This document shows positions 10,027 through 63,147 of a DNA stretch of 64,000 bases, in pieces. A program made the position numbers and the translations under genes. Numbering within the stretch: position 1 is the stretch's first letter; each line of letters begins with the position of its first letter. The DNA lies in NCBI RefSeq assembly GCF_001650025.1, contig NZ_LVVY01000094.1, positions 1-64,000 on the forward strand, given 5' to 3'. Below the pieces are notes generated by a model, which saw only the letters and a program-made list of their open reading frames with translations, was not told where the DNA came from and ran no database searches. Source of the DNA: Devosia elaeis. Lineage in GTDB: Bacteria > Pseudomonadota > Alphaproteobacteria > Rhizobiales > Devosiaceae.

Positions 10027-10050
10027 TTCGCATCGTGTTGAGGACCTTGC

Positions 10051-10356: not shown

Positions 10357-10387
10357 GCCACCCGTTCTCACGATTTGATTCCGTTTG

Positions 10388-10419
10388 GCGCCGCAAGAGA
10401 TTGCGGCGCTTTGCTTTTT
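10388..10419 (+). terminator. rho-independent terminator after the NDUFS4-like gene
   Basis: Perfect 9-bp stem GCGCCGCAA/TTGCGGCGC (10388-10396, 10401-10409) with loop GAGA, followed by TTTGCTTTTT. It separates the NDUFS4-like gene from the TraB/GumN gene. Confidence 0.92.
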
Positions 10420-10459
10420 GGCATTACCTTTCCCGCCGAGTGTAGAAGAAAGGCACGAC

Positions 10460-11326: not shown

Positions 11327-11385
11327 AAGCGGTTCGCTCAAGAGACAGCGCTTGTTTAGGCATCAATGCCTGAATTCCCCGCGAG

Positions 11386-11461
11386 GTCATCCCCGCGAAA
11401 GCGGGGACCTCTGTTACAGATGTAAGGATGGCAACAGGGTTCCCGCTTTCGCGGGAATGAC
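11386..11461. repeat. dispersed inverted repeat, family C (CCCCGCGAAAGCGGGG type)
   Basis: Two hairpin units, CCCCGCGAAAGCGGGG and TTCCCGCTTTCGCGGGAA, stand in opposite orientation and frame about 35 bp of unrelated sequence. A second copy is at 63186-63263. It occupies the 206-bp gap between convergent genes, where nothing else is seen. Confidence 0.75.
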
Positions 11462-11532
11462 CTGGTGGATGGGAAAGCGCCAAATAGGCGCTTCCCTCAG
11501 AAGGAAGGGCGAGAAGCAACCGCCCTGACCGC

Positions 11533-12684
11533 TCAGACGTCGCTGAGCCTGGTCCACTTGCTGTCGTTCTGGCTCGACTGCACCGAAGCCACGATGAACT
11601 GCATGCCTTCCACGCCATCGGCCAGGCTCGGGAGCAGGGCTTCGAAATCGCCACCCTCGCCGCGGATGACGGCGGCGAACTGGCTGTAGATGGTGGCGAA
11701 GGCTTCCAGATACCCTTCCGGATGGCCCGACGGAATGCGGACATTCATGGAGGCGGCCGGCGGCACCGAGATGGAACCGCCACGGGTCAGCAATTGCTTG
11801 GGCTTACCGAATTCGGTGAACCACATGTAGTTCGGATTGTCCTGGCGCCATTCCAGACCGCCCTTGTCGCCATAAACGCGCAATTGCAGCCCGTTCTCGC
11901 AACCGACGGCCACCTGGCTGGCCCAGAGCATGCCCTTGGCCCCGCCCTCGAAGCGCAGCATGATATGGACATTGTCGTCCAGTTGGCGGCCCGGCACGAA
12001 GGCGGTGAGGTCGGCCGAAACCGCCTCGGTCTTGAGGCCGGTGACGAAGCGGGCGAGATTATAGGCATGGGTGCCGATATCGCCGATGGCGCCGCCGGCG
12101 CCGGAACGGGCCGGGTCGGTGCGCCAGGACGCCTGCTTGTTCTCTTCGCCGGTGGCCTCGGTGAGCCAATCCTGCGGATATTCGGCCTGGACGACCCGGA
12201 TTTTGCCGAGCGCGCCGGACGCCACCAGTTCACGCGCCTGCCGGATCAGTGGATAGCCGGTATAATTGTGAGTCAGCAGGAATTTCGCGCCATTCTTCGG
12301 CTGGATCTGCGCCAGCTTGCGGGCATCATCCAGCGTCGAGGTCAGCGGCTTGTCGCAGATGACGTGGATGCCCGCTTCGAGGAAAGCCTTTGCGGGCCCG
12401 AAATGCATATGGTTCGGCGTCACGATGGAAACGGCCTGGATGCCGTCCGGACGGGCCGCCTCGGCCTTGGCCATCTCTTCGTAGGACGTATAGATGCGGT
12501 CCTCGGCCAGGCCCAGGTTCTTGCCGGATTCTTTGGCCACGTCGGGGCGCGACGACAGGGCGCCGGCCACCAGTTCGTAATCCCCGTCCAGCCGGGCGGC
12601 GATGCGGTGCACATAGCCGATAAAGGCCCCCGTGCCGCCACCGACCATGCCCAGGCGAATGCGCTTCGCGCCATTTTCAGCCAT
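11533..12684 (-). CDS. Gfo/Idh/MocA family NAD(P)-dependent sugar dehydrogenase (copy 1)
   Basis: Oxidoreductase of 383 residues. The N-terminal Rossmann motif is LGMVGGGTGAFIG. An EKP-like motif reads CDKPLTS near residue 110. In the C-terminal substrate domain IGDIGTHAYNLARF carries the catalytic His position. GMLWASQVAVGCENGLQLRVYG is typical of the glycoside/inositol dehydrogenase branch. It is the last gene of the sugar operon, after a TIM-barrel isomerase with a palindromic repeat between them. It likely oxidises a sugar or glycoside hydroxyl, perhaps to a keto-sugar; the substrate is not determined. Confidence 0.9.
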   Translation of the reverse strand: MAENGAKRIRLGMVGGGTGAFIGYVHRIAARLDGDYELVAGALSSRPDVAKESGKNLGLAEDRIYTSYEEMAKAEAARPDGIQAVSIVTPNHMHFGPAKAFLEAGIHVICDKPLTSTLDDARKLAQIQPKNGAKFLLTHNYTGYPLIRQARELVASGALGKIRVVQAEYPQDWLTEATGEENKQASWRTDPARSGAGGAIGDIGTHAYNLARFVTGLKTEAVSADLTAFVPGRQLDDNVHIMLRFEGGAKGMLWASQVAVGCENGLQLRVYGDKGGLEWRQDNPNYMWFTEFGKPKQLLTRGGSISVPPAASMNVRIPSGHPEGYLEAFATIYSQFAAVIRGEGGDFEALLPSLADGVEGMQFIVASVQSSQNDSKWTRLSDV

Positions 12685-12717
12685 TTTTATTTCCTCTTCC
12701 CGTGCTCTCGTCCACCG

Positions 12718-12780
12718 TCATTGCCCGGCTTGTCCGGGCAATCCATGGACCACCGGGACAAGCCCGGTGGTGACGATGAA
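12718..12780. repeat. dispersed palindromic repeat, family A
   Basis: Two nested palindromes, ATTGCCCGGCTTGTCCGGGCAAT and ACCACCGGGACAAGCCCGGT, joined by CCATGG. It lies inside the sugar operon between the 352-residue isomerase and dehydrogenase copy 1. It could form a strong intercistronic stem-loop and reduce readthrough into the last gene. Confidence 0.75.
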
Positions 12781-12794
12781 CTGGACATTTACGA

Positions 12795-13853
12795 TTACGA
12801 AAGGCCCAGCATCTTGCGATTGGCCGCCTGATCGGTGCCGCCCGAGGCGAAATCGTCGAAGGCCTTTTCGGTGACGCGGATGATATAGCTCTGGATGAGC
12901 TCGGCGCCCTCGCGGGCCCCGTCCTCGGGATGCTTGAGCGCGCATTCCCATTCCAGCACGGCCCAGCCCTTGAAATCATTGGCCGCCATCTTGGCGAAAA
13001 TGGCCGGGAAATCGACCTGGCCGTCGCCGATGGAACGGAAGCGCCCTGCCCGGTTCACCCAGGACTGGAAGCCGCCATAGACGCCCTGCCGGCCCGTGGG
13101 ATTGAACTCGGCATCCTTCACGTGGAAGGCCTTGATGCGATCCTTGTAGATGTCGATGTAGTCGAGATAATCGAGCTGCTGCAGCACGAAATGGCTCGGA
13201 TCGTAGAGCAGGTTGGCGCGCGGATGGTTCTTCACGCGGTCAAGGAACATTTCGTAGGAAATGCCGTCGTGCAGGTCCTCGCCCGGATGGATTTCGTAGC
13301 AGACATCGACCCCGGCCTCGTCGAAGGCATTGAGGATCGGGGTCCAGCGGCGGGCAAGCTCGTCGAAGGCTTCCTCGACCAGGCCCGCGGGGCGCTGCGG
13401 CCAGGGATAGATATAGGGCCAGGCCAGCGAGCCGGAGAAGGTGGCATGGGCGTTGAGGCCGAGATTCTTCGATGCCTTGGCGGCATTCATCAGGGTCTGC
13501 ACGGCCCATTCCTGCCGCGCCTTGGGATTGTTGTGCACCGAGGCCGGGGCAAAACCGTCGAAGGCGGTGTCATAGGCGGGATGCACGGCGACGAGCTGGC
13601 CCTGGAGATGGGTCGAAAGCTCGGTGATCTCCAGCCCATGGCTGTTGACGATCCCCTTGATCTCGTCGGCATAGGTCTTTGAATTCGCGGCCTTTTCGAG
13701 ATCGATGAAGCTCGATACCCAGGTCGGGATCTGGACGCCCTTATAGCCGAGCCCAGCGGCCCAGCGACAGATATTGTCGAGATTGTCGAATGGCGCCGTG
13801 TCGCCCGCGAACTGGGCGAGAAAAATGGCGGGGCCCTTGAGCGTGGTGGCCAT
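12795..13853 (-). CDS. sugar phosphate isomerase/epimerase-like TIM-barrel protein, long form
   Basis: Xylose isomerase-like TIM barrel of 352 residues. Candidate metal ligands fall in the usual order: Glu in CYEIHPGED, Asp/His in LLYDPSHF, His/Asp in AFHVKDAEF, and Glu in VLEWECALKHPEDG. The start ATG 13853 (MATTLKGPAI) follows a clear GAGGAG site 7 bases away; the frame is open to 14003 but without a better start. It is larger than the 249-residue paralogue in the same operon. Related proteins isomerise sugars or cleave 3-keto-glycosides. The exact reaction is unknown; pairing with the next dehydrogenase suggests consecutive steps. Confidence 0.88.
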   Translation of the reverse strand: MATTLKGPAIFLAQFAGDTAPFDNLDNICRWAAGLGYKGVQIPTWVSSFIDLEKAANSKTYADEIKGIVNSHGLEITELSTHLQGQLVAVHPAYDTAFDGFAPASVHNNPKARQEWAVQTLMNAAKASKNLGLNAHATFSGSLAWPYIYPWPQRPAGLVEEAFDELARRWTPILNAFDEAGVDVCYEIHPGEDLHDGISYEMFLDRVKNHPRANLLYDPSHFVLQQLDYLDYIDIYKDRIKAFHVKDAEFNPTGRQGVYGGFQSWVNRAGRFRSIGDGQVDFPAIFAKMAANDFKGWAVLEWECALKHPEDGAREGAELIQSYIIRVTEKAFDDFASGGTDQAANRKMLGLS

Positions 13854-14016
13854 AGATTTCTCCTCATGTGGCCCCGCGCACCGCATCTGCCGGGGCTTGT
13901 TCTTGTGGCTGCGGAACGGGTGTCCGCATGAATGACGGGCGGCGATCGCTCGCCGCCCTGACATGTTACGCACTAGTGTTGACCGGCGCAAAGAGCCTGT
14001 CAATGAGGTACGTCCA

Positions 14017-15159
14017 TCAGGCCTTGAGCAAGGCCTGGGCGTCCTCGATGCCGAGGGCGCGGGGCCGCTCGCAACTGGTCTGCAGGGTCAGCACCTGTCC
14101 GGTCTCGCCCGCCTTGAGCAGGCCGGTCATCACCTCGACCACGTGCAGCGCCACGTCGAGGTCGCAACGGGCGACCTGTCCGGTTTCCAGCGACTGCATC
14201 ATGTCGGCCAGGCCGGCGCAGCGGTAATTGGCGCGCGGATTGTCCTTGTCGAGATCCTGGTTCGGCTTACCGAAGGGATGGTTCCAGGGAGTGACCGGGC
14301 TGCGGGCGCCGTCGATGGCCGCCGTCACCAGGTCGCCGCCGAAGAAATTCGGATCGGGAACGAAGATGGAGCCGTCAGTGCCGTAAAGCTCGATATTGTG
14401 GTGGCCATGGGCCGCCACGTCCCAACTCGCGCCGATGGTGATGATGGCGCCGGAATGGAATTCGAGCACACCATGGATCGTGGTCGGGGTGCCGACCTTG
14501 ATGACGCTGCCCTTATAGGGGCCCTCGGCGGTGACGACGCGCTCGCTGCGCGCCATGTTGGTGAAAGCCGAGAGGCGCTTGACCGGGCCGAGCAGATGCA
14601 CGAGGTCGGTGATGTAATAGGGACCGAGATCGAGGATCGGCCCGCCGCCCGGCTGGAAGAAGAAATCCGGGTTCGGATGCCAATGCTCCATGCCTCGGCT
14701 CATCACGTGCGTGGTGCCGCTCATGATCTTGCCCAGCTTGCCGCTATCGATGATCTCGCGGGCCTGCTGATGGGCGCCGCCCAGGAAGGTATCCGGCGCC
14801 GAGCCCACCTTGAGGCCGCGCTCGACCGCCGCCTTGCGCAGGGCCAGCCCCTCCTCCACGCTCAGCACGAAGGGCTTTTCCGAATAGGAATGCTTGCCCG
14901 CCGAGATGATGTCCATCGACACCTTGTAATGGGTCGAGGGGATGGTGAGGTTGACGATGACGTCCAGCTCGCTGTTCTTGAGCAATTCGTCCGGGGTCTG
15001 GGCCGCCACGCCGAATTCCTCGGCGCGCTTCTGGGCCGCCTCGGGAATGATATCGGCGACGGCGCGCACCTCGATCCCCTTGAACAGGGGCGCGAGGCGC
15101 AGATAGGCAGCCGAAATATTGCCGGCACCCATGATGCCGACGCCATAGGTCTTTGCCAT
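14017..15159 (-). CDS. Gfo/Idh/MocA family NAD(P)-dependent sugar dehydrogenase (copy 2)
   Basis: Oxidoreductase of 380 residues, MAKTYGVGIMGAGNISAAYL. It has the GxGxxxA dinucleotide motif, an EKP motif in SYSEKPFVLS near residue 95, and GGGPILDLGPYYITDLVHLLGP, the canonical block of this family. It is clearly diverged from copy 1. It lies 3 bp downstream of the 249-residue isomerase. The two-gene pair isomerase + dehydrogenase occurs twice in the operon. Probable role: oxidation of the imported sugar or of a derived glycoside. Confidence 0.91.
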   Translation of the reverse strand: MAKTYGVGIMGAGNISAAYLRLAPLFKGIEVRAVADIIPEAAQKRAEEFGVAAQTPDELLKNSELDVIVNLTIPSTHYKVSMDIISAGKHSYSEKPFVLSVEEGLALRKAAVERGLKVGSAPDTFLGGAHQQAREIIDSGKLGKIMSGTTHVMSRGMEHWHPNPDFFFQPGGGPILDLGPYYITDLVHLLGPVKRLSAFTNMARSERVVTAEGPYKGSVIKVGTPTTIHGVLEFHSGAIITIGASWDVAAHGHHNIELYGTDGSIFVPDPNFFGGDLVTAAIDGARSPVTPWNHPFGKPNQDLDKDNPRANYRCAGLADMMQSLETGQVARCDLDVALHVVEVMTGLLKAGETGQVLTLQTSCERPRALGIEDAQALLKA

Positions 15160-26932: not shown

Positions 26933-27025
26933 AGACCTCATGGTGAGCCTGTCGAACCACGAGATCGGGCACGCCTACGCTTTGGTGCCACGCCCTCACC
27001 CTTCGACGAGCTCAGGATGAGGTCT
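26933..27025. repeat. dispersed inverted repeat, family B (AGACCTCA...TGAGGTCT)
   Basis: Outer arms AGACCTCATGGTGAGC and GCTCAGGATGAGGTCT are about 60 bp apart, with inner complementary TGTCGAACCACGAG-type segments. Compared with other copies the element is inverted. It ends 13 bp before the stop of the convergent Gre-factor gene. Confidence 0.75.
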
Positions 27026-34657: not shown

Positions 34658-34750
34658 AGACCTCATTCTGAGCCTGTCGAAGGAGGAGGTCGTGGCGCAC
34701 GAGCCTCAACGTTCCCGACCTCATGGTTCGACTGGCTCACCATGAGGTCT
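34658..34750. repeat. dispersed inverted repeat, family B, with a decayed family A unit before it
   Basis: Starts AGACCTCATTCTGAGCCTGT and ends CACCATGAGGTCT, in the standard orientation. About 50 bp earlier (34566-34606) a degenerate GCAAGCTGGATTGCGGGGAC unit resembles family A. The 218-bp gap 34540-34757 contains nothing else. Confidence 0.75.
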
Positions 34751-38050: not shown

Positions 38051-38237
38051 TGCGATCCTCACGCGGCTCGGGCCGGCTCCGTCTGGGGTGCATGCACATA
38101 GCGCGCACGGGCCGCCGCGGCAACCGTCCCGCGCCGATGCGCCGCCTTGCCGGTTTCGGCGCGATCGGCCTTGAATGTCGCGGCGGAATGGGCCCTCCTT
38201 ACCTGCCGGCAACGGCGCGACTCGGAAGCGGCAGGCC

Positions 38238-39056
38238 ATGGCAGATGCGACGAAACCACCGGCGGACGACGAAAACGGCACGGAAAAGGGCCTGGCCGGC
38301 CTGCGCTCCAGGCTGCGGCTGCTCTATCACGGCCAATCGCCCAAGGCCCTGCGCTTCCAGGCGACGATCCTGGTGGTCGACCTCGCCATCATCGCTTTCT
38401 TCATCGCCTCCCCGCTGCTGCGCGATTCGGCGAGTTTCCTGTGGATCGACTATTCCATCGCCGCCATCCTGGCGCTGGACCTGACGGCGCGAGGCCTGGC
38501 CTCCACCCATCCGCTGCGCTGGCTGCGGCAATTGCCGGTGATCGTGGATATCTTCATCCTCATCACCCTGCTGGCGCCCACCTGGTTCTTCAATCTGGGT
38601 TTCCTGCGCATCCTGCGGCTCTGGACGCTGTCGCGGTCCAGCATCGTCTGGCGCCCGCTGGAAAAGCGCGGCCTGGGCAGCTACCGCGACACGATCCAGG
38701 CGGTGATCAACCTCCTGGTCTTCCTCTTCGTGGTCACCGGCTTCGTCTATACCGCCTTCGCCCAGCGTGACGCCGGCATTGCCGGCTATGTCGACGCGCT
38801 CTATTTCACCGTCACCACCATGACCACGACCGGCTTCGGCGATATCGTCCTGCCGGGTACGTTCGGCAAGCTGGTGTCGATAATCATCATGATCATCGGC
38901 ATTTCGCTGTTCGTGCGACTGGCTCAGCTGGTCTTCCGGCCCAACAAGGTCACCTTCCCCTGCCCCCAATGCGGCCTCTCCCGCCACGAGCCGGACGCCG
39001 TCCATTGCAAGGCCTGTGGACACCTGCTGAAGATTCCGGATGAGGGGGTGCATTAG
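38238..39056 (+). CDS. potassium channel-like protein with C-terminal zinc ribbon
   Basis: Membrane protein of 272 residues. Residues 43-130 contain several membrane segments with a weak S4-like helix (FLRILRLWTLSR). Residues 158-235 form the S5-pore-S6 module. The filter reads TMTTTGFGDI (residues 195-203) where most channels have T-V/I-G-Y-G. A C-terminal zinc ribbon follows directly: Cys242, Cys245, Cys257 and Cys260 in FPCPQCGLSRHEPDAVHCKACGH. The TGFGD filter is used by some K+ channels, so K+ conduction is plausible. ATG 38238 is preceded by a weak GGAAGCGGCAGG site. The ribbon may sense metal or redox state. Confidence 0.85.
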   Translation: MADATKPPADDENGTEKGLAGLRSRLRLLYHGQSPKALRFQATILVVDLAIIAFFIASPLLRDSASFLWIDYSIAAILALDLTARGLASTHPLRWLRQLPVIVDIFILITLLAPTWFFNLGFLRILRLWTLSRSSIVWRPLEKRGLGSYRDTIQAVINLLVFLFVVTGFVYTAFAQRDAGIAGYVDALYFTVTTMTTTGFGDIVLPGTFGKLVSIIIMIIGISLFVRLAQLVFRPNKVTFPCPQCGLSRHEPDAVHCKACGHLLKIPDEGVH

Positions 39057-39183: not shown

Positions 39184-39214
39184 GTGGTTCGACAGGCTCA
39201 CCATGAGGTCTTCT
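39184..39214. repeat. dispersed repeat, family B, half element
   Basis: Only the second half of a family B element is present, GTGGTTCGACAGGCTCACCA then TGAGGTCTTCT, ending 9 bp before the kinase stop. The rest of the gap 39057-39223 is the family A element. Confidence 0.7.
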
Positions 39215-39223
39215 GGAACGGCC

Positions 39224-41935
39224 CTACGATTCCCGCCCCACCACCGGCAGGCGCACGCGGAAGCAGGCGCCCGGCAGCGGGCCCTGCACCAGTTCCAGCA
39301 CCCCGTTCATGCGGGCGATGATCTGGCGGCTGATCGCCAGGCCCAGTCCCGCACCGCCCTGGTCACCCGCACCCGAAACGCCGCGCCAGAACTTCTCGAA
39401 GATCAGCTTGCGCTCGGTCTTGCCGATCCCCGGGCCGTTATCGGCCACCTCCACCACATAGGTGCCCGAGCGCACCGAAGAGCTGACATGGACGACCGGC
39501 TGGTCGGCATCGTTATATTTGACCGCGTTGGAAATGAGATTGATGAACACCTGGCAGAGCCGGTCGGCATCGCCCTCCACCATGGTCGTATGCGCCCGCT
39601 CGCCGAATTCCACCCGCATGCCCCGCTGGCGTAGCAAGGCATCGCAGACGCTGACCGCCCGGTTGAGCGCGTCCTCGGCGTCGACCGGCTCGTTCTGCCA
39701 GGTCCGCTCGCCCCGCTCCAGCGCGCTGAGATCGAGGATTTCGTCGAGCAGCTTGGTCAGCCGCATGCTTTCCTGGTGGATGGTGGAGATGAAGCGCTGC
39801 CGCTGCCCCTCGTTGAGCCCGGCCGGCTCGAGCAGGATTTCCGAAAAGGAGCGGATGGAGGTCATCGGCGTGCGCACTTCGTGGCTCACCTGGCTGAGGA
39901 ATTCGTCCTTCTGGCTGTCCAGCTCCCGCAATTGCGCATTGGCCTCCTCCAGCTTGTGCGCCGTCAGCCGCAGCTCGGCCGAGGTCTTTTCCAATTGCTG
40001 GGAATATTCGATGACCTGCTGGGTTTCGTCGGCCATCTGCATCATTTCCTCAAGCGACACGTCGCCGCCCGCTACCACCTTGGAGAGCATGACATGGGCC
40101 GATGAGGCCCCGATGGAGCCGGCCAGTTCGCGCTCCAGCCGGCCGATAAAGGCCGGCGTCGGCTCCAGCAGCGCCGGATCGACGCCCCGCTCGCGTGCCG
40201 CCGCCTCGAACAAGGCCGCCGCCCGCTTCTCCCCCAGCACGCGCTCGGCCACGAAATAGAGATCGTTCGCCGTAGCCGAGCCCGGCACGAAATTGCGCTG
40301 CGGCAGGCCATGGCGCCGGAACACGTCCACAAAGGCCGTCGCCTGGATGCGCTCCAGCGCCGAGGGGCTGGTCAGCAGCGAGCCCAGCGTCAGGATCAGC
40401 ACATTGATCGAAAGGCTCCAGAAGGCCGCATGCGCCAGCGGATCCCAGCCTTCAAGACCGAACATCGCCTCCGGCCGCAGCCAAAGAACGCCCCAGGGCC
40501 CCTCCTCCAGCAGCGTCGAGACCAGCGGCGACACCGAGGCGAGCGAGGGCAGGAAGCACGACCACGCCCAGATGACGAAACCGACCGAAATCGCCGCCGT
40601 CACCGCCTTGAGCGAGGCATCTTTCCAGAAGATCGCCGCCAGCAATGCCGGCAGGAATTGCGCGATCGCCGTGAAGGAAATGAGCCCGATCGGTGCCAGC
40701 GCGTCGGAATCGCGCGTGAACAGGAAATAGAAGAAGCCCAGCGACAGGATCAGCACGATGGCGAAGCGCCGCGCCACCAGCAGCACGCTGCTCACCCCCT
40801 GCCCGTCCCCGCCTTGCGGCGCCGCGCCGAACTTGAGCACCAGCGGCATCATGATGTGGTTCGACACCATGATCGACAGGGCGATGGATTCGAGGATGAT
40901 CATTGATGTGGCGGATGAAAAACCGCCGATAAAGGCAAAGAGTGCCAATGCATTCTGTCCTGCCGATAGCGGCAGGGTCAGTGCGAACATGTCGGGATTG
41001 GCATCGTCTGGCATCACCGTCAGCCCATAGACGGCGATGGGGATGATGAAGATGCTCATCAGCATCATATAGGCCGGAAAGGCCCAGCCGGCGACGCGCA
41101 GATGGTTCTCGTTGGAATTCTCCACCACCGTCACCTGGAACTGGCGCGGCAGGCAGATGATGGCGGCGATGGAGAGGACCAGCGTGGTGATCCAGCGGCT
41201 GTCGAAACTGGCCGAGGTGTCGAAAACCACGCCCTTTTCCGCCGCCTGGCTGAAAATACCCTCGATGCCGCCGCCTAGATAGATGACGAAGACCCCCACC
41301 GCCACCAGGGCGGCGAGCTTCACCACGGCCTCGAAGGCGATGGCGGCGACGACGCCGTGATGCTGCTCCTTGGCGTCCACGTGGCGCGTGCCGAAGAGGA
41401 TGGTGAACAGCGCCATTGCCGCCGCCACGCCCAGGGCCAGCCCCACATCGTCGATGCCGGTGAGGCTGCCGCGCCCGAATTCGGAAGCCCCCGCCACTGC
41501 CTGGATCGAGGACGTCACCGCCTTGAGCTGGAGCGCGATATAGGGCGCGATGCCGATCACCGCGATGCAGGTCACCAACACGCCCAGCCGGCTGGACTTG
41601 CCGAAGCGCGAAGACAGGAGGTCGGCCACAGAGGTGATGCGATGCAGGTGGCTGATGCGCACCAGCCGGCGCAGTACGAAATACCAGCCCACGAAAACCA
41701 GCGTCGGCCCGAGATAGATGGTGAGGAATTCCAGCCCGCTGCGCGCCGCATTGCCCACCGCGCCGTAAAAGGTCCAGCTGGTGCAATAGACCGAGATGGA
41801 CAGCGTGTAGACCGCCGGCGAATTCAGCCAGGAACGCTTGTTGGCCTTGGCGCGCCTGTCCCCGAAATAGGCAAGCACGAAGAGCAGGCCGACATAGGCG
41901 ACAGAGGTGGCGATGACGAAATCGGCCGACAGCAT
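39224..41935 (-). CDS. sodium/solute symporter-histidine kinase hybrid (CrbS-like)
   Basis: Protein of 903 residues. Residues 1-520 form an SSS-family transporter with about 13 membrane segments, starting MLSADFVIATSVAYVGLLFV, with RRLVRISHLHRITSVADLLSSRFGKS and LPRQFQVTVVENSNENHLRVAGWAFP, as in PutP/CrbS. A cytosolic linker/coiled coil follows (about 600-670, MMQMADETQQVIEYSQQLEKT). HisKA carries the phosphoacceptor His685 in LSQVSHEVRTPMTSIRSF. HATPase motifs are NLISNAVKYND, VEVADNGPGIGKTE and GGAGLGLAISRQI. Last of the cluster regulator - receiver - small protein - kinase, with a 1-bp overlap to the small gene. Probably senses or imports a small organic acid; substrate unknown. Confidence 0.93.
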   Translation of the reverse strand: MLSADFVIATSVAYVGLLFVLAYFGDRRAKANKRSWLNSPAVYTLSISVYCTSWTFYGAVGNAARSGLEFLTIYLGPTLVFVGWYFVLRRLVRISHLHRITSVADLLSSRFGKSSRLGVLVTCIAVIGIAPYIALQLKAVTSSIQAVAGASEFGRGSLTGIDDVGLALGVAAAMALFTILFGTRHVDAKEQHHGVVAAIAFEAVVKLAALVAVGVFVIYLGGGIEGIFSQAAEKGVVFDTSASFDSRWITTLVLSIAAIICLPRQFQVTVVENSNENHLRVAGWAFPAYMMLMSIFIIPIAVYGLTVMPDDANPDMFALTLPLSAGQNALALFAFIGGFSSATSMIILESIALSIMVSNHIMMPLVLKFGAAPQGGDGQGVSSVLLVARRFAIVLILSLGFFYFLFTRDSDALAPIGLISFTAIAQFLPALLAAIFWKDASLKAVTAAISVGFVIWAWSCFLPSLASVSPLVSTLLEEGPWGVLWLRPEAMFGLEGWDPLAHAAFWSLSINVLILTLGSLLTSPSALERIQATAFVDVFRRHGLPQRNFVPGSATANDLYFVAERVLGEKRAAALFEAAARERGVDPALLEPTPAFIGRLERELAGSIGASSAHVMLSKVVAGGDVSLEEMMQMADETQQVIEYSQQLEKTSAELRLTAHKLEEANAQLRELDSQKDEFLSQVSHEVRTPMTSIRSFSEILLEPAGLNEGQRQRFISTIHQESMRLTKLLDEILDLSALERGERTWQNEPVDAEDALNRAVSVCDALLRQRGMRVEFGERAHTTMVEGDADRLCQVFINLISNAVKYNDADQPVVHVSSSVRSGTYVVEVADNGPGIGKTERKLIFEKFWRGVSGAGDQGGAGLGLAISRQIIARMNGVLELVQGPLPGACFRVRLPVVGRES

Positions 41936-42168
41936 CAGCCCTCGCCCTCTTCTTCGCGCTCCACCGGATCGGGCGGCAGGTGCCGCGTCAGCGCGACCGT
42001 GCCGACGATCAGCAGCAGCCAGACGGTGAACAGATAGAACACGATCTGCGGCATGCCGAGAAAGGTCACGTCGCGATTGAACAGGCCCACAACGGGCGGC
42101 ACGAATAGCACCAGGCCCAGCACGGTCAGCATGAACAAGCCGCCGACGACCCGCCGCCGGTCAGTCAT
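41935..42168 (-). CDS. small membrane protein associated with the symporter-kinase
   Basis: Protein of 77 residues, MTDRRRVVGGLFMLTVLGLVLFVPPVVGL, with two hydrophobic segments (residues 8-30 and 40-60) and an acidic tail (PDPVEREEEGEG). Size and place match the small integral membrane partners found next to SSS transporters. It overlaps the receiver gene by 8 bp and the kinase gene by 1 bp, so the three are likely co-translated. Confidence 0.8.
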   Translation of the reverse strand: MTDRRRVVGGLFMLTVLGLVLFVPPVVGLFNRDVTFLGMPQIVFYLFTVWLLLIVGTVALTRHLPPDPVEREEEGEG

Positions 42169-42535
42169 TCTCGCCCAGCAATTGGCGCACCGCCCCCACC
42201 ACTTCGGCATTGGAATAGGGCTTGGTCACGAAGCCATCCGCCCCCAATTCCTCGGCGATGCGCCGGTCCTGCTGCTGGCCCTTGGCGGTGAGGATCAGCA
42301 CCGGCAGGTCGCGGGTTTCGACATCGGCGCGCAATTGCTTGAGCACGTCGAAGCCGCTGCGCCTGGGCAGCATGACATCGAGCACCAATACGCGCGGCGG
42401 CGCCCGGCGCACCCGTTCGAGCACCGCTTCGCCATCCGTAACCGACTCGATGCTCCAGCCCGCGCGGCGCAGGATGAAGTCCAGTGATTCAAGAATGCTC
42501 GGCTCGTCTTCGGCGATCAGGACATCGATGCCCAA
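42161..42535 (-). CDS. single-domain response regulator (CheY-like receiver)
   Basis: Protein of 124 residues made of a receiver domain only. Acidic pocket VLIAEDEPS, phosphoacceptor Asp in RVLVLDVMLPRRSG, Thr in VLILTAKGQ and Lys in GFVTKPYS are all present. No DNA-binding output domain follows. Start chosen at TTG 42535, placed 4 bases after GGAGGGGG, because upstream residues are not receiver-like; a start at 42589 is the alternative. It is the probable partner of the symporter-kinase. Confidence 0.9.
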   Translation of the reverse strand: MGIDVLIAEDEPSILESLDFILRRAGWSIESVTDGEAVLERVRRAPPRVLVLDVMLPRRSGFDVLKQLRADVETRDLPVLILTAKGQQQDRRIAEELGADGFVTKPYSNAEVVGAVRQLLGEND

Positions 42536-42589
42536 AATTCCCCCTCCGTCCGCGATCTCCCCTCCGCGAACCGCAGTAATAAAGCCCAA

Positions 42590-44215
42590 TCAATTGTGTT
42601 CGCCAAGGCCAAATTCGCTGGGGATCAGCGGCAGGCGCGTTACCGAGCGCGGCCCGCCAGGCGAAAGCATCTCCTCCTGCCGGGCCGAACATTCCCGCCG
42701 CGGGCACAGCCGGCAACTGGGCCCCACCGGCACATCGGCGCTCTGGTCGTTGAGATCGAGCCCCGCCGCATAGACGGTGCGGTCGGCATGGAGCACGTCG
42801 CAGGCCAGCATCACCGAAATCGAAATGGGCTGGTCGCGGAACGATCCGGCGCGGTGTTGCAGGGTCCGGGCGATGAACAGATAGCGCGAACCGTCGGAAA
42901 ACCGCACCACTTGGCGCAAAATAGCGCCCGGCTGCCGGAAGGCCCCATAGATCGCCCAGAGTGGGCAGGCATGCCCGGAATTGGGCAGCAACAGGCCCGG
43001 CAGCGGAAAATGCTTGGTCAGCCGCCCCGCCGGGTCCGAGCGCAGGAAGCCGAAAGGAATGCCCTCCTCCCCCGGCCGCCGCAGCGAAACCAGCCGATGG
43101 GCGACCTGCTCGAAGCTGCCCCCGAAGGTCTCGCGCAGATAATCGGCGTCATAGGCGGATGCCTCGGCCTCCGCCAGAAACCGCGAATAGGGGAAGACGA
43201 TGGCCCCGGCGAGATAGGAGCCCAGCGCCCGCGCGGCCAGTCGCCGCGAGGTTTCGTTGGTCAGCATCGCCCCGTCGAGAATATCGCGCAGCACATCGGC
43301 GGCCACCAATTCCCCGAGCAGCCGCGCCAGCTGGAATTGCCGCGTCGCCAGCGTCGTCGTGCCCTGGAACCACATGACGCCGCGCTCCGGCTCGTAGCGG
43401 TATTGCCCGGGAAAATCCGCCGGTCCCGGCCGCCCGCCGATGCGCGTCACCACACCGAACTGGCGCTCCAGCATCTCGACCAGCGCAGCGAGACCGAAAT
43501 GGCCGTGCTGCGCTTCGATTCGCGCCCGCAATTGCGCTGCGACGGCTTCGAGCTGCGGGAAATAATTCTGCCGCTCGATGATCAGGTCATCGATTTCCCG
43601 CCGCGTCGATACGGTGCGCGCCGCCTGGCTGGTCACTTCGAACTGGCCGATCAGGCTCCGCGCGACATCGCCCAGGATGCGCGCCTCTCGGCCGATGGCG
43701 ACGAGGAATTTCTGCCGCTCGTCCTCATCGAGATCGGCCACGTCCTCGAGGATTTCCGCGCTGGAGCGCACGGCGGTGATGCCCGAGAGAATCTGGTGCA
43801 GCAATTGGCTCAGGAGCGGGTCCGAGCGCAGCCGGTCCGCATAGGCATCGGCATTGTCCCGCGCATCGGAATAGGCCCGGTGCAGCCGCGCCATGGCCGT
43901 GGCGCTGGCCGGATATTGCGCCACCAATTGCCGCCTTTCATCCGGCTGGAACGGCAGCGACTCGACCATGGGGTCGGCATAGGCCTCTTCCAACTCATGC
44001 ATCAGTTTCTGCTCGGCCTGACCGGTCAGGTCGTCGATTGCGATCTGCAGATGATGCGCCACGCGCTGCAGGAGCGCGCCGCCGACATCGCGTTTATTGT
44101 TTTCGATGAGGTTGAGATAGCTCGGCGAAATGCCCACCAGCCGCGCCAGTGCCGCCTGGGAAATCTTCAACGATTTCCGCCTGTTGCTGATCCGGAATCC
44201 GATCGGCGCCCGCAT
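42590..44215 (-). CDS. ScfR/RamB-like short-chain fatty acyl-responsive XRE regulator
   Basis: Protein of 541 residues. An N-terminal Cro/C1-type HTH (residues 5-65: GFRISNRRKSLKISQAALARLVGISPSYLNLIE). A coiled-coil linker (about 75-230). A DUF955/IrrE-like block (about 280-340, TTTLATRQFQLARLLGEL) lacks the metal-binding HExxH. A C-terminal DUF2083-type region with a Cys pair (CRLCPRREC) and FDLRPxQL-like ends. Family members (RamB, PrpR, ScfR) control acetate or propionate metabolism and bind acyl-CoA or related ligands. Divergent from the HAAT operon and 54 bp upstream of the receiver gene. Confidence 0.88.
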   Translation of the reverse strand: MRAPIGFRISNRRKSLKISQAALARLVGISPSYLNLIENNKRDVGGALLQRVAHHLQIAIDDLTGQAEQKLMHELEEAYADPMVESLPFQPDERRQLVAQYPASATAMARLHRAYSDARDNADAYADRLRSDPLLSQLLHQILSGITAVRSSAEILEDVADLDEDERQKFLVAIGREARILGDVARSLIGQFEVTSQAARTVSTRREIDDLIIERQNYFPQLEAVAAQLRARIEAQHGHFGLAALVEMLERQFGVVTRIGGRPGPADFPGQYRYEPERGVMWFQGTTTLATRQFQLARLLGELVAADVLRDILDGAMLTNETSRRLAARALGSYLAGAIVFPYSRFLAEAEASAYDADYLRETFGGSFEQVAHRLVSLRRPGEEGIPFGFLRSDPAGRLTKHFPLPGLLLPNSGHACPLWAIYGAFRQPGAILRQVVRFSDGSRYLFIARTLQHRAGSFRDQPISISVMLACDVLHADRTVYAAGLDLNDQSADVPVGPSCRLCPRRECSARQEEMLSPGGPRSVTRLPLIPSEFGLGEHN

Positions 44216-44283
44216 GGCCCACCCCCTCCCCGAGAAGACCGCCTGTCAACACATTCACAAATAATGCGTCACGACAGATCAAC

Positions 44284-44296
44284 AATTTACAAAATT
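44284..44296. promoter_or_regulatory. candidate operator between ScfR-like and HAAT genes
   Basis: 13-bp perfect inverted repeat AATTT-ACA-AAATT in the 191-bp divergent region 44216-44406. It is AT-rich against a GC-rich background. The flanking promoter elements could not be defined. Confidence 0.35.
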
Positions 44297-44406
44297 CTGG
44301 TGGTATTACAATGCTCTATTGAAGCCGTTTTCAAATGTGTCGAATACTGGGCAGGCGGTGAAGTCCCGACAATGTATCGGAACTCCCGCGCCAAAGGAGG
44401 AGATCA

Positions 44407-45765
44407 ATGACACTTTTGAAGCGCGGGCTGACCCGCCGCAGAGTTATGCAGACCGGCATGGCCGGCATCATCGGCGCCGGTGTCGCACCCATAATGTTCA
44501 CCAGGGGCGCCTGGGCGCAGGAGGATTTCTGCAACAACCCGACCGGCGACACCGTCACCATCGGCCTCAACCTGCCGCTGACCGGCGCCTATGCCGAGGA
44601 AGGCGCCGACGAACAGAAGGCTTATGAGCTCGCCATTGCCCACCTCAACGGCGAAGGCGATGGCGGCCTTCTCAACGTGCTCGCCCCCTCCGCGCTCAAG
44701 GGCAACGGCATCCTGGGCAAGAAGGTCGGCTATGTGTCCTCGGACAGCCAGACCAAGTCCGACGTGGCCCGCGCCGGCGCCACCCGCATGATCGAGCGCG
44801 ACGGCGCCATCATGATCACCGGCGGCTCGTCCTCGGGCGAAGCCATTGCCGTTCAGGGCCTGTGCCAGGAAAAGGGCATCATCTTCATGGCCGGCCTGAC
44901 GCACTCCAACGACACGACCGGCAAGGACAAGCGCCGCTACGGCTTCCGCCATTTCTTCAACGCCTATCAGTCCGGCATCGCCCTGGGCCCGGTTCTGGGC
45001 CAGGAATACGGCGCAGACCGCCGCGCCTATCACCTCACCGCCGATTATACCTGGGGCTGGACGCAGGAAGAGTCGATCAAGGCTGCCACCGAAGCCCTCG
45101 GCTGGGAAACCGTGGCCGCCGTGCGCACCCCGCTCGGCTCCACCGATTATTCCCAGTACCTGACGCCGATCCTCAATTCCGGCGCCGACGTGCTGATCCT
45201 CAACCATTACGGCCTCGACATGGTGAACTCCCTGCCCCAGGCCGTGCAGTTCGGCCTGCGCGACCGCCAGGCCAATGGCAAGCAGTTCCAGATCGTCACC
45301 CCGCTGGTGTCGGAACTGATGGCCAAGGGCGCCGGCGAAGCCATGCAGGGTGTGTTCGGTACCTCCAACTGGCACTGGAACCTGCAGGATCCGGGCTCCA
45401 TCGCCTTCACCAAGTCCTTCGGCGCCGCCTATGGCTCCCCGCCGTCCCAGGCCGCCCACACCGCCTATGTGCAGATGCTGCTCTACGCGGATGCGGTCGA
45501 ACGCGCCGGCACCTTCTACCCCCCCGAGGTCATCAAGGCGCTGGAAGGCCACGAATTCGACGGCATGGGCAATGGCAAGACGCTCTACCGTGCCGAGGAC
45601 CATCAGTGCATGAAATCGGTTCTGGTGGTGCAGGGCAATGAAGCCCCGACCAGCGAATTCGACGTGCTGAACGTGGTCCAGGAAGTGGACCGCGAGACCA
45701 CGACCTACGATCCGTCGATCTTCGGCGGCGAACTCGGCCCCGCAGAACCGGCGCCGCTGTGCTGA
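44407..45765 (+). CDS. HAAT-family ABC transporter substrate-binding protein (Tat signal)
   Basis: Binding protein of 452 residues with a twin-arginine signal: TRRRVMQTGMAGIIGAGVAP, AWA cleavage region. The mature protein is of the branched-chain amino acid/urea/amide type (Peripla_BP_6): NNPTGDTVTIGLNLPLTGAYAEEGADEQKAYELAI, GGSSSGEAIAVQGLCQEKGI and ADYTWGWTQEESI. Four cysteines are present in the mature part. ATG 44407 is preceded by GGAGGAG. It heads the operon with livHMGF-like genes. The ligand cannot be assigned; branched-chain amino acids, urea or short-chain amides are the typical range. Confidence 0.9.
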   Translation: MTLLKRGLTRRRVMQTGMAGIIGAGVAPIMFTRGAWAQEDFCNNPTGDTVTIGLNLPLTGAYAEEGADEQKAYELAIAHLNGEGDGGLLNVLAPSALKGNGILGKKVGYVSSDSQTKSDVARAGATRMIERDGAIMITGGSSSGEAIAVQGLCQEKGIIFMAGLTHSNDTTGKDKRRYGFRHFFNAYQSGIALGPVLGQEYGADRRAYHLTADYTWGWTQEESIKAATEALGWETVAAVRTPLGSTDYSQYLTPILNSGADVLILNHYGLDMVNSLPQAVQFGLRDRQANGKQFQIVTPLVSELMAKGAGEAMQGVFGTSNWHWNLQDPGSIAFTKSFGAAYGSPPSQAAHTAYVQMLLYADAVERAGTFYPPEVIKALEGHEFDGMGNGKTLYRAEDHQCMKSVLVVQGNEAPTSEFDVLNVVQEVDRETTTYDPSIFGGELGPAEPAPLC

Positions 45766-45781
45766 TCGCTTGATCCCTTTG

Positions 45782-45808
45782 GCTCGCCCCTCGCGGGGCG
45801 GGCTTTCT
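45782..45808 (+). terminator. stem-loop after the HAAT binding-protein gene
   Basis: 9-bp stem GCTCGCCCC/GGGGCGGGC with loop TCGC and a short TTTCT, 17 bp past the stop. It lies inside the operon, so partial termination is likely. Confidence 0.75.
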
Positions 45809-45812
45809 CAGT

Positions 45813-45907
45813 AGACCTCATCCTGAGCCCGTCGAAGGACGAGGTCGTGCCCCGATTGTTCGAGCCTTGTACCACGCGCTCGTGGTTCGACAGGCTCACC
45901 ATGAGGG
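45813..45907. repeat. dispersed inverted repeat, family B
   Basis: AGACCTCATCCTGAGCCCGT opens and GACAGGCTCACCATGAGG closes the element. It lies inside the HAAT operon between the binding-protein terminator and livH, ending about 30 bp before the livH start. Confidence 0.8.
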
Positions 45908-45936
45908 CTACGGAAGCGAGCTCAGCGGAGCCATCC

Positions 45937-46968
45937 ATGTTCGAAGTCATCTTTCTGCAATTTCTCAACGGGCTCGACAAAGGCGCCGCCTATGCGCTGA
46001 TCGCCCTTGGCCTCACCCTGGTGTTCGGCACGCTGGGCGTGGTCAATTTCGCCCATGGTGCCCTGTTCATGCTCGGCGCCTTCTGCGCCGTCACCGTGCG
46101 CATGTTCCTCACCATGGAAACGGTCACGGTCGATCCGACCCAGCTCTCCCCTTGGGGCGCGCCGCTGGAAATCCGCGAGCCGCTGGTCCAGGCCTGGCTC
46201 GGCGATTTCGGCGCGGTGCTGGTCAATTACTCGGTGCCGTTCTCGATCCTCATCACCATCCCCATCATGCTGCTGGTCGGCATCGGGCTGGAACGTGGCA
46301 TCATCAAGCATTTCTACAAGCGCCCCCATGCCGAGCAGATCCTGGTGACCTTCGGCCTGGCCATCGTGGCCCAGGAAGTCATCAAGTCGATCTTCGGCCC
46401 CAATCCCATTCCCCAGCCGATGCCCACCGATCTGCGCGGTGCCGCCGATATCGGCGCCTGGCTGGGCATGCAGGCCAATGTCATCACCTATCCGATCTGG
46501 CGCCTGGTCTATTTCCTGTTCGCCGGCGTAGTCATCGGCGCGGTCTTCGCCTTCCTCCAGTTCACCACCTTCGGCATGGTGGTGCGCGCCGGCATGGCCG
46601 ATCGCGAGACGGTGGGCCTGCTCGGCATCAATATCGATCGCCGCTTCACCATCATGTTCGGCCTTGCCGCCGTCGTCGCCGGCGTGGCGGGCGTCATGTA
46701 CACGCCGCTCCTGCCGCCGAACTATCATATCGGCATGGACTTCCTGGTGCTCAGTTTCGTGGTGGTCGTGGTGGGCGGCATGGGCTCGCTGCCCGGCGCC
46801 GTCGCCGCCGGCTTCCTGCTCGGGATTCTCCAGAGCTTCGCCTCCATGAACCAGGTGAAAGCCATCTTCCCCGGCATCGACCAGATCATCATCTATCTCG
46901 TCGCCGTCGTCATTCTACTCGTTCGTCCGCGTGGCCTGCTCGGCCGGCGCGGTGTCATGGAGGCCTGA
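45937..46968 (+). CDS. livH: HAAT-family ABC permease LivH-like
   Basis: Inner-membrane permease of 343 residues. Start motif [40 protein letters not shown] is diagnostic of Liv[21 protein letters not shown] is the ATPase-contact loop. ATG 45937 has a CGGAG site. The LivM gene follows after 1 bp. Gene symbol marks family position, not proven leucine transport. Confidence 0.92.
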
Positions 46969-46969
46969 C

Positions 46970-48106
46970 ATGAATCCCGCTCTCATGTCCCGCAACGACC
47001 TCTTCCTGCTGCTCGGCTTCACCCTGGTGGTGCTGGCCATGCCGATCTGGCTGGCGCCTTTCGGCGCCGGCTATCCGGACCTGCTGCAGCGTTTCATGAT
47101 CTACGGCATCTTCGCCGTCGGCTTTAACATCCTCTTCGGCCTCACCGGCTATCTCAGCTTCGGCCATGCCGCCTTTTTCGGCGTCGGTTCCTACACCGCC
47201 GTCTGGTCGCTGAAGCTGCTGACCCTGGACGCCATCCCGGCCCTGTTCTTCGCTGTCATCATCTCGGGCCTCTTCGCCCTGGTCATCGGCTTCCTCTGCC
47301 TGCGCCGCTCGGGCATCTATTTCTCCATCCTCACCCTGGCCTTCGCCCAGATGAGCTACAATCTCGCCTATTCGGTGCTCACCCCGATCACCAATGGCGA
47401 AACCGGCCTGCAACTGACCCTTTCCGATCCGCGCGTCATCGACGCGGCCGTAGGCCATACTTTCGTGGGCCAGCCGATCCCGACCCTCCTGGGCACGCCG
47501 ATCGGCGGCTATGCCGGCTTCTATTTCTGCGCCGGCTTCCTCATCATCACCTTCTTCATCGCCCAGCGCATTGCCGGCTCGCCCTTCGGCATGATGCTCA
47601 AGGCGATCAAGTCCAACCAGACCCGCATGCAGTTCACCGGGTTCAATACCCGCCCCTATGCCCTCTCCGCCTTCGTGATCTCGGGCATGTATGCGGGCCT
47701 GGCCGGCGCCCTGCTCGCCGTCACCGACCCGCTGGCCGGCGCCGAGCGCATGCAATGGACCGCCTCGGGCGAAGTCGTGCTCATGACCATCCTGGGCGGC
47801 GTCGGCACCCTGGTGGGCCCGGTCATCGGCGCCTGGATCATCAAATATTTCGAGAACATCCTCTCGGCGCTCAACGACAATATCCTCGCCCGCTTTTTCG
47901 ACTTCCTGCCCGATGGCGTGGATACCTTCTTCGTCAAGGTCATCGGCAAGTTCGTGGGCGATGGCTGGCACCTGACACTGGGCCTGGTCTTCGTGATCAT
48001 CGTGATCTTCCTGCCGGGCGGCATCATGGAAGGCGTCCGCCGCGTCGCCGCCATGTTCGACCGCTCGGGCGGCAAGACCTCCACCCGCACGCAAGCCGCA
48101 GAATAG
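46970..48106 (+). CDS. livM: HAAT-family ABC permease LivM-like
   Basis: Inner-membrane permease of 378 residues. [28 protein letters not shown] and [25 protein letters not shown] match LivM, with [23 protein letters not shown] near the end. Start ATG 46970 lies just after the livH stop; the site GGAGG is inside livH. The TM count is about 8-10. Confidence 0.92.
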
Positions 48107-48116
48107 GACCCCGGCC

Positions 48117-48881
48117 ATGGCACAAAACAATGTTGTCCTGCATGTCGCGGACGTCCACAAAAGGTTCGGCGGCCTGCACGCCCTGGCCGACATCGATCTG
48201 CAGATCGAGGAAGGCAAGACCCATGCGATCATCGGCCCCAACGGAGCCGGTAAATCGACCCTGCTCAACGTCATCATCGGCAAGCTGCCGCCCACCAGCG
48301 GCCAGGTGGTGTTCGACGGCACGATCCTGACCGGAAGAAAACCCTATCAGATCAACCAGCTCGGCATTGCCCGGGTGTTCCAGACGCCCGAGATTTTCGC
48401 CGATCTTTCAGTGCTCCATAACGTCATGATCCCGGCACTCGCCAAGCGCGACGGCATGTTCAGGCTCAACATGCTGCGCACGCTGGACAGCGAGACCGGC
48501 ATCCGCGCCGAGGCCGAACACATGCTGGAGGATGTGGGGTTGATCAACCGCCGCCACATGCAGGCCGGCTCGCTCTCGCGCGGCGACAAGCGCCGCATGG
48601 AACTGGCCATGTGCCTCATCCAGCATCCGCGCCTCTTGCTGCTGGACGAACCCACGGCCGGCATGAGCCGCCATGACACCAACACCACCATCGACCTGCT
48701 CAAGAAGATCAAGGCCCGCGGCATGACCAAGGTGATCATCGAGCACGACATGCATGTCGTGTTCTCGCTGGCCGACAAGATTTCGGTGCTCGCCCAGGGG
48801 CGGATCATCGCCGATGGCATGCCCGATCAGGTGCGTGGCAATCCCAAAGTGCAGGAAGCCTATCTCGGAGGAGCCCATTGA
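48117..48881 (+). CDS. livG: HAAT-family ABC ATP-binding protein LivG-like
   Basis: ATPase of 254 residues. Walker A is GPNGAGKST, the signature is LSRGDKRRME instead of LSGGQ, and Walker B LLLLDEPTAGMSRHDT is followed by the switch His in IIEHDMHVVFSL. LivG-typical RVFQTPEIFADLSVLHNV is present. It overlaps livF by 1 bp (TGATG). Confidence 0.93.
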   Translation: MAQNNVVLHVADVHKRFGGLHALADIDLQIEEGKTHAIIGPNGAGKSTLLNVIIGKLPPTSGQVVFDGTILTGRKPYQINQLGIARVFQTPEIFADLSVLHNVMIPALAKRDGMFRLNMLRTLDSETGIRAEAEHMLEDVGLINRRHMQAGSLSRGDKRRMELAMCLIQHPRLLLLDEPTAGMSRHDTNTTIDLLKKIKARGMTKVIIEHDMHVVFSLADKISVLAQGRIIADGMPDQVRGNPKVQEAYLGGAH

Positions 48882-49648
48882 TGAGTTCCATCGCCATGAC
48901 CACCGAAACCATCGTCAGCCAGGCCGCCGAAGTGGAAACCAGCCGTCCCTTCTTCTCGGTGCGCGATATCCACGCCTATTACGGCGAAAGCTATATCGTG
49001 CAGGGCGTGTCGCTCGATATCCGCAAGGGCGAAATCCTGGCCCTGCTCGGCCGCAACGGCGCCGGCAAGACCTCTACCCTGCGCACCATTGCCCGCACCG
49101 GCAATCCGGAAATGCGCCAGGGCGAAATCTGGCTCGACGGCCAGGCCGTGCACCAGATGAAGAGTTTCGAGGCCGCCCGCGCCGGTATCCAGCTCGTGCC
49201 CGAGGACCGCCGCATCATCCAGGGCCTGAGCGTCGAGGAAAACCTCAACCTCGCCCGCGTCGCCCCCGGCCACGGCTGGAGCCTCGAGCAGATTTACGAG
49301 AGCTTTCCGCGCCTCGCCGAGCGCCGCACCCAGGATGGTGTCACCCTGTCGGGGGGCGAGCAGCAGATGCTGGCCATTGCCCGCGCCCTCGCCCGCGACC
49401 TCAAGCTCCTGCTGCTCGACGAGCCCTATGAGGGCCTGGCCCCGGTCATCGTGCAGGAAATCGAACGCATCCTGCATTCGATCAAGCCGCTGGGCATCAC
49501 CACCATCATCGTCGAACAGAACGCCGTGGCGGCCCTGAAACTCGCCGACCGCGCCGTCATCCTCGACACCGGCGAGGTCGTCTTCTCCGGCACCGCCAAG
49601 GAGGTCCTCGACAACGCCGAACTTCGTCACGAATATTTGGCGATTTAG
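48881..49648 (+). CDS. livF: HAAT-family ABC ATP-binding protein LivF-like
   Basis: ATPase of 255 residues. Walker A GRNGAGKTS, signature LSGGEQQML, Walker B LLLLDEPYEGLAPVI and IIVEQNAVAAL are LivF-type. The ATG used is 48881 (MSSIAMTTE), directly overlapping the livG stop; a GTG/TTG start one codon earlier is less likely. A 20-residue lead precedes the usual LivF start SVRDIHAYYGESYIVQGVSL. Confidence 0.93.
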   Translation: MSSIAMTTETIVSQAAEVETSRPFFSVRDIHAYYGESYIVQGVSLDIRKGEILALLGRNGAGKTSTLRTIARTGNPEMRQGEIWLDGQAVHQMKSFEAARAGIQLVPEDRRIIQGLSVEENLNLARVAPGHGWSLEQIYESFPRLAERRTQDGVTLSGGEQQMLAIARALARDLKLLLLDEPYEGLAPVIVQEIERILHSIKPLGITTIIVEQNAVAALKLADRAVILDTGEVVFSGTAKEVLDNAELRHEYLAI

Positions 49649-49668: not shown

Positions 49669-49753
49669 AGACCTCATCCTGAGCCTGTCGAAGGACGAGG
49701 TCGCGGCCACCGAGTAACCGATCTCGTGGTTCGACAGGCTCACCATGAGGTCT
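49669..49753. repeat. dispersed inverted repeat, family B
   Basis: AGACCTCATCCTGAGCCTGT to CACCATGAGGTCTCC, 21 bp after the livF stop. The 477-bp gap 49649-50125 between the convergent livF and pxpA holds this and the next two repeat blocks; no gene is seen in it. Confidence 0.8.
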
Positions 49754-58059: not shown

Positions 58060-58154
58060 AACCTCATCCTGAGCCTGTCGAAGGACGAGGTCGGGTGCAG
58101 CCGAGCATCAGCGTTCTCGACCTCGTGGTTCGACAAGCTCACCATGAGGTCTCC
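58060..58154. repeat. dispersed inverted repeat, family B
   Basis: Opens ACCTCATCCTGAGCCTGTCG and closes CACCATGAGGTCTCC. It lies between the convergent UbiH-type and IalB genes. Confidence 0.8.
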
Positions 58155-63052: not shown

Positions 63053-63147
63053 AGACCTCATCCTGAGCCCGTCGAAGGGCGAGGTCGTGGCACACAGCTC
63101 GTAGCGTGCCCGACCTCGTGGTTCGACAGGCTCACCATGAGGTCTCC
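63053..63147. repeat. dispersed inverted repeat, family B
   Basis: AGACCTCATCCTGAGCCCGT to CACCATGAGGTCTCC. First of three repeat blocks in the 625-bp gap 62927-63551 between sdhE and the SDR; nothing else is recognised there. Confidence 0.8.

Follow-up and report, generated by a model that had tools for sequence, protein, structure and literature searches.

A ScfR/PrpR-family regulator with a kinase-like DHp hairpin as the candidate output of an SLC5-STAC kinase and a single-domain receiver in Alphaproteobacteria

The four genes analyzed in this work, located in a 64,000-nucleotide stretch of the Devosia elaeis genome (the window; contig NZ_LVVY01000094.1), are one half of a conserved nine-gene cassette and are divergent from an operon for a Liv-type ABC transporter. 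They encode a sensor kinase, a small membrane protein, a receiver without an output domain and a ScfR/PrpR-family regulator that carries, between its helix-turn-helix (HTH) and its PrpR/ScfR-type acyl-CoA/FeS part, a DHp-like (HisKA) hairpin resembling that of the kinase in the same cassette. Judging from these features, the cassette is probably a carboxylate-responsive module in which a kinase-mimicking DNA-binding protein, separate from the receiver, serves as the two-component output.

Gene content of the locus

All four genes are on the minus strand, with the positions, the lengths and the H-box histidine of the kinase (His685) that had been assigned to them in a preliminary description of the window. 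The regulator gene (541 aa; 42590-44215) is followed by those for the single-domain receiver (124 aa, phospho-Asp53; 42161-42535), the two-helix membrane protein (77 aa; 41935-42168) and the SLC5-STAC-HisKA-HATPase sensor kinase (903 aa; 39224-41935). The receiver most likely starts with the TTG codon at 42535, after a GGAGGGGG stretch, and, given this start, the 54-bp gap previously reported between the regulator and receiver genes is reproduced. So are the tight overlaps, which amount to 8 bp between the membrane protein and receiver genes and to one base between the ATG of the kinase gene and the stop codon of the membrane protein gene. The original delineation of a four-gene cluster was accurate with respect to gene content but missed both the DHp-like domain of the regulator and the divergent ABC operon (44407-49648, plus strand), which consists of genes for a periplasmic substrate-binding protein (Peripla_BP_6; 44407-45765), permeases of the LivH/UrtB (45847-46968) and LivM/UrtC (46931-48106) types, and ATPases of the LivG/UrtD (48117-48881) and LivF/UrtE (48878-49648) types.

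In Pfam searches, the kinase contains HisKA and HATPase_c domains and no REC domain, so it is not a hybrid kinase. The Pfam SSF model (PF00474) has no match anywhere in this genome, the kinase included; residues 7-617 of the kinase match chain 10ed (E-value 4.5e-72), the solved SLC5-STAC part of Pseudomonas CbrA (PMC13022988). The kinase accordingly has the composition of SLC5-STAC sensor kinases, with SLC5 and STAC joined to HisKA-HATPase, and the absence of REC from the kinase and of a DNA-binding output from the receiver sets the pair apart from CrbS/CrbR. The existence of a separate partner elsewhere in the genome had been considered in the preliminary description; no other SLC5-type kinase is encoded in this genome, and therefore there is no separate CrbS-type pair.

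The 77-aa protein has two predicted helices and four invariant residues (P25, Y45, F47 and W50). In position, size, topology and gene overlap, it is similar to CbrX, a small two-helix protein that binds the SLC5 domain and whose gene overlaps the kinase start, its translation being coupled to that of cbrA (PMC6591292, PMC13022988). A search of the PDB sequence set, of which entry 10ed is a part, found no sequence match between the 77-aa protein and CbrX.

As described at the outset, the receiver has no output domain: a lone Response_reg domain was identified by Pfam here, and the same holds for all relatives examined. The phospho-Asp, the Lys and the Thr/Ser are each present in 70 of 70 receivers of the relatives. 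Another SLC5-type kinase paired with a single-domain receiver is encoded on plasmid 1 of Paracoccus denitrificans (7278-14178), adjoining genes for a nucleotidyltransferase-substrate-binding-domain protein and an exonuclease-domain protein, that is, other partners for a bare receiver.

Two further features of the window were observed. A gene for a voltage-gated-like potassium channel with a C-terminal zinc ribbon (38175-39056) is convergent beside the kinase gene; among the 30 Hyphomicrobiales loci described below, this arrangement is kept in three loci of the same genus and not in other families. In addition, a 23-bp dispersed repeat (TGGTTCGACAGGCTCACCATGAG) occurs seven times, with no more than one mismatch, in the 64 kb, where none are expected (26937-26959, 34724-34746, 39185-39207, 45883-45905, 49727-49749, 58126-58148 and 63119-63141), several of them intergenic.

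Conservation of the cassette

Co-conservation of the gene set, which had been named as a check of the putative module, was found in each of 30 Hyphomicrobiales loci from many families that were chosen on the regulator sequence alone: all 30 have the receiver and kinase genes beside the regulator gene. Liv/Urt-type ABC genes, transcribed away from the regulator, are present in 29 of these, the contig of the thirtieth ending just before, and the small membrane protein gene was detected in 22 at the BLAST level.

For a second set of 80 named loci, the ABC binding protein was the basis of selection. A DHp-type regulator is encoded in 44 of these, together with the kinase and the receiver, within the stretch covered, in 37 loci and, as detected by tblastn, in two more. 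Among the other five, three (L109, L118 and L121) stop at a contig edge, one (L065) is on a short contig with the receiver present, and one, from Aminobacter (L068), has the regulator but no kinase or receiver within ~8 kb. The gene order, conservation of which had also been proposed as a check, is strongly conserved, but it has changed in some lineages with the linkage retained: the receiver and kinase genes are on the other side of the regulator gene in Paracoccus solventivorans, Pseudaminobacter and Falsigemmobacter, and downstream of the ABC genes in Sneathiella and Magnetovibrio.

Searching 385 Alphaproteobacteria with the DHp profile yielded, among the matches listed, 45 genomes with a regulator-size match; again among the matches listed, a match to a kinase of ~900 aa was located within 11 kb in 38 of these genomes and elsewhere in the genome in the remaining 7. 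In plasmid collections, there was one clear further relative with the regulator, kinase and ABC genes, in Neorhizobium SOG26. A different arrangement was observed in a SAR324 locus (L127), in which a bare receiver, a HisKA_2 protein and a receiver-PAS-LuxR protein are encoded upstream of the ABC genes (7453-9605) and an SLC5 kinase downstream of them, with no DHp-type regulator.

The regulator and its PrpR-like half

The regulator contains an N-terminal HTH (HTH_3, E-value 1.9e-11; residues 11-63, 44027-44185), a Peptidase_M78 domain and a ScfRs domain (PF09856, E-value 2e-44). The combination of HTH and ScfRs that marks ScfR/PrpR/RamB regulators is present here and in 26 of 26 orthologues; against the RamB equivalog model NF038139, the regulator scores under the curated cut-off (314.7 vs 700 bits). 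It is similar to Mycobacterium tuberculosis PrpR both in sequence (E-value 4.8e-51) and in structure (Z 37). The [4Fe4S] ligands of M. tuberculosis PrpR are C363 and the cysteines of C447-X2-C450-X4-C455 (PMC6765138), and the corresponding residues of the regulator, C417, C501, C504 and C509, are invariant in 26 sequences. In several distant module regulators, the IrrE-like segment is shrunken, and the DHp insert is kept in all of them.

A DHp-like hairpin shared with the partner kinase

The hairpin comprises residues ~132-199 of the regulator (43619-43822, minus strand), with His140 encoded at 43796-43798. When profiles were compared with hhalign, the insert aligned with the DHp of the partner kinase over 61 columns (99%, E-value 9e-18), placing His140 on His685. 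With the Pfam HisKA model, the window regulator scores 13.4 bits, below the 26.9 cut-off, and 14 of the 26 orthologues are matched (best E-value 8.7e-6). AlphaFold2 models the insert, including the fragment on its own, as two long helices (residues 133-158 and 164-199). Foldseek searches with the DHp fragment retrieved HK853 first and DivL second, with E-values (0.26 and 0.42) that are weak, as a helical hairpin would be expected to give; searches with the whole model pick up the PrpR half and the HTH and are uninformative on the hairpin.

Run against its own genome, the HMM of the regulator DHp assigns 51.7 bits to the partner kinase and at most 8.4 bits to the other HisKA kinases. As a control, we collected 18 ScfR-family regulators of relatives by six-frame search. 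Neither DHp profile gives any of these paralogues, all from outside the cassette, more than 0.8 bits, compared to 28-38 and 92-104 bits for the module regulators with the two profiles, and, in the alignment, the segment is simply missing from the paralogues. The regulator DHps form one group (support 0.95) in a tree built from 162 DHp segments, and this group, together with the partner kinases, is apart from other kinases, with a support of 0.56 for the joint group. The mean identity of the regulator DHps is 0.36 to the partner kinases and 0.18 to other kinases. The simplest reading of these comparisons is that the kinase's own DHp was copied into a ScfR-type regulator in a single ancestral event.

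Conserved and lost residues and the possible function of the hairpin

Across 75 regulators and 71 kinases, we compared the residues of the H-box and of the receiver-facing surface. Most of the regulators have lost the kinase-invariant Glu+1, Arg+3 and Pro+5, with Glu+1 found in 4 of 75, and no HATPase domain was detected in the regulator by Pfam, which is not the composition of an active histidine kinase. Because these H-box residues are lost and the ATPase domain is absent, the regulator DHp should not autophosphorylate. The receiver-facing positions, represented in the window regulator by T147, R150, S151, E154, I155 and L156, are kept: T+7 in 64, R+10 in 65, S+11 in 72, E/D+14 in 74, I+15 in all 75, and L+16 in 69 of the 75 regulators. 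The +7 residue of Caulobacter DivL is T557, and mutating it, like mutating R553 or Y562, disrupts the binding of DivK (PMC4211667).

Given the alignment of His140 with the phospho-His of the kinase, the receiver might pass its phosphate to this residue in a Spo0B/Hpt-like phosphorelay, with phospho-His switching DNA binding. His140 is present in 66 of the 75 regulators, and Ser or Thr occupies position +4 in 63, both of which speak for such a relay. We nevertheless find it unlikely: in the other nine regulators, which come from no fewer than three separate lineages, His140 is replaced by Phe, Tyr, Leu or Gln, the kinase and the receiver being retained where the contig reaches, and docking on DivL needs no histidine at this position, Y550 being dispensable for DivK binding (PMC4211667). 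In the Sneathiella/Magnetovibrio subclade, both His140 and R150 are lost and the module is still present. The residue pattern suits docking better than obligatory phosphotransfer, with a relay possible where the histidine is present. Apart from this weighing, we observed that loci L109, L110, L115, L116, L121, L125 and L139, mostly from Sneathiella and Magnetovibrio, have Phe or Tyr for His140 and a changed R150; the regulators with these residues parallel the Tyr of DivL and offer natural cases in which docking without phosphotransfer could be tested.

The preliminary description had offered two roles for the regulator, a hidden output through protein contact or a parallel sensor of the same acid. 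In the strict form of the latter, the regulator would be only a parallel acyl-CoA/FeS sensor, the insert a dimerization hairpin, and the receiver would act elsewhere or serve as a phosphate sink. The PrpR-type Cys ligands are indeed invariant, clustering alone may reflect a common substrate, and DHp hairpins dimerize, so that the resemblance to DHp could in part reflect this use. However, the insert resembles the partner kinase specifically and not just any kinase, the insert is missing from the paralogues, and the receiver-facing residues are conserved whereas the catalytic residues of the H-box are lost, all of which makes a sensor of this kind, confined to a parallel role, improbable. High similarity to the kinase DHp would also permit the regulator to compete for the receiver or to hetero-dimerize with the kinase DHp, tuning the signaling by feedback instead of serving as the output; such a scheme would leave the receiver without an output, and the regulator has the only HTH of the cassette; we give the scheme very little credence. 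What we prefer is the hidden output, in that the regulator is likely the output by protein contact and the pseudo-DHp would be the contact device, with docking itself being our inference. The sensor part of the alternative also stands, given that the PrpR-type acyl-CoA/[4Fe4S] residues are kept, but it need not be an alternative to a hidden output.

The divergent promoter

The predicted operator in the intergenic region consists of a TTCACAAA and a TTTACAAA box, 32 bp start to start (44254-44293), and a further TTTTCAAA box is located at 44328-44335. In 72 intergenic regions between the regulator and binding protein genes, TTTnCAAA was observed 87 times vs 3.1 in shuffles, these counts not being independent because the loci are related. 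The 32-bp spacing is the most common among box pairs (12 loci of distant families, compared to 4 loci for the next spacing), and the pair at 44254-44293 is the only one in this genome, even with one mismatch allowed. ScfR sites typically consist of two near-identical boxes (PMC10370305). Scans of the intergenic region for sigma-70 promoters and terminators found nothing.

The ABC operon and its putative substrate

An acyl-CoA synthetase gene (acs) is the next gene after the ABC genes, in the same orientation, in 15 loci, and the five acs proteins tested score above the cut-off for AcsA (acetate-CoA ligase) and below that for propionate-CoA ligase. The presence of an acetate-CoA ligase gene after the ABC operon in these 15 relatives makes an acetate-like substrate likely; our best guess from the gene neighborhood is acetate or a near relative, lactate, propionate and pyruvate being less likely candidates. 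In the Devosia genome, acs is located elsewhere, not in the ABC operon, and there are no boxes upstream of it. Searches of solved binding-protein structures for the substrate gave distant matches only, with no clear ligand. A D-lactate ABC transporter of Phaeobacter is a possible relative.

The same ABC genes also occur near other SLC5-type kinases. Their neighbors in three gammaproteobacterial loci (L133, L123 and L135) are genes for an SLC5-type kinase and for a regulator of the NtrC type, and, in L133 (5072-17286), acs follows in line after the ABC genes. In three alphaproteobacterial loci, the ABC genes are near an SLC5-type hybrid kinase, the one that was scanned being NahK/ErcS-like.

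Proposed mechanism and comparison with known systems

The mechanism we propose draws on what is seen in the sequences, namely, the parts of the cassette and their conservation, the DHp homology, the loss of H-box residues with retention of the docking face, and the enrichment of the boxes; phosphotransfer, docking, the sign of regulation and the ligand are what we infer from these. The SLC5-STAC kinase would sense a small acid, acetate or a closely related compound being the most likely, with the 77-aa protein probably acting as its CbrX-like subunit, and would phosphorylate the lone receiver on the conserved Asp. The receiver would then leave the kinase DHp and dock, preferentially when phosphorylated, on the pseudo-DHp of the regulator, altering the conformation or oligomeric state of the latter at the paired TTTnCAAA boxes and so controlling the divergent ABC importer operon (with acs in some relatives) as well as the regulator's own operon. 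Through receiver docking combined with its PrpR-like half, the regulator would read both the external acid and the internal acyl-CoA/iron status.

On balance, we favor the view that the regulator acquired its DHp in one event, as a pseudo-kinase receptor for an output-less receiver, and belongs to a dual-input class present in Alphaproteobacteria and some Gammaproteobacteria. Such a class would offer an answer to the question, usually left open, of how some single-domain receivers reach a promoter, and would be an example of a two-component pathway taking over a one-component regulator into which a copy of the docking domain of the kinase has been grafted. One promoter would have two inputs, the acid outside and the acyl-CoA inside, with predictions at the level of single residues. 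The cassette also points to ABC-type uptake of acetate-like acids in bacteria without recognizable SSF-family symporters, with the caveat that Pfam SSF misses the kinase as well. Our searches of the open-licence literature revealed no prior account of either a transcription factor containing a DHp-like domain or a sensor wired to a gene switch via a kinase-mimicking regulator, which is not proof of novelty.

In the Spo0F-Spo0B phosphorelay, the partner to which a single-domain receiver hands its signal is likewise DHp-like; this partner, Spo0B, needs its histidine and lacks a DNA-binding domain. A close counterpart of the proposed docking is the DivK-DivL pair of Caulobacter: DivK, a receiver lacking an output, docks on a DHp that has no kinase role, in which Tyr or Phe can stand at the His position and the Thr at +7 is important for docking. 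The module regulators would parallel DivL in these respects; DivL, however, is a membrane PAS pseudokinase acting on CckA, whereas here the DHp is part of a cytosolic DNA-binding protein with no ATPase domain (PMC4211667). The CrbS/CrbR, RpuS/RpuR and CbrXA/CbrB systems (PMC5715377, PMC9100948, PMC13022988) employ an SLC5-STAC kinase, as does the cassette, and control the use of acetate, pyruvate or histidine. In contrast to CrbR and CbrB, in which the receiver is fused to a DNA-binding output, a bare receiver is combined here with a separate ScfR-type regulator, and the kinase, unlike CrbS, is not a hybrid. PrpR, RamB, MccR and PccR (PMC6765138, PMC10370305) share with the regulator the HTH, the IrrE-like and ScfRs domains and the CX2CX4C motif plus one Cys, and, likewise, combine paired boxes with short-chain acyl-CoA metabolism. 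Unlike the 18 ScfR-family paralogues, which have neither a DHp-like insert nor an input from a kinase and receiver, the module regulator adds to this architecture the hairpin through which such an input could be received.
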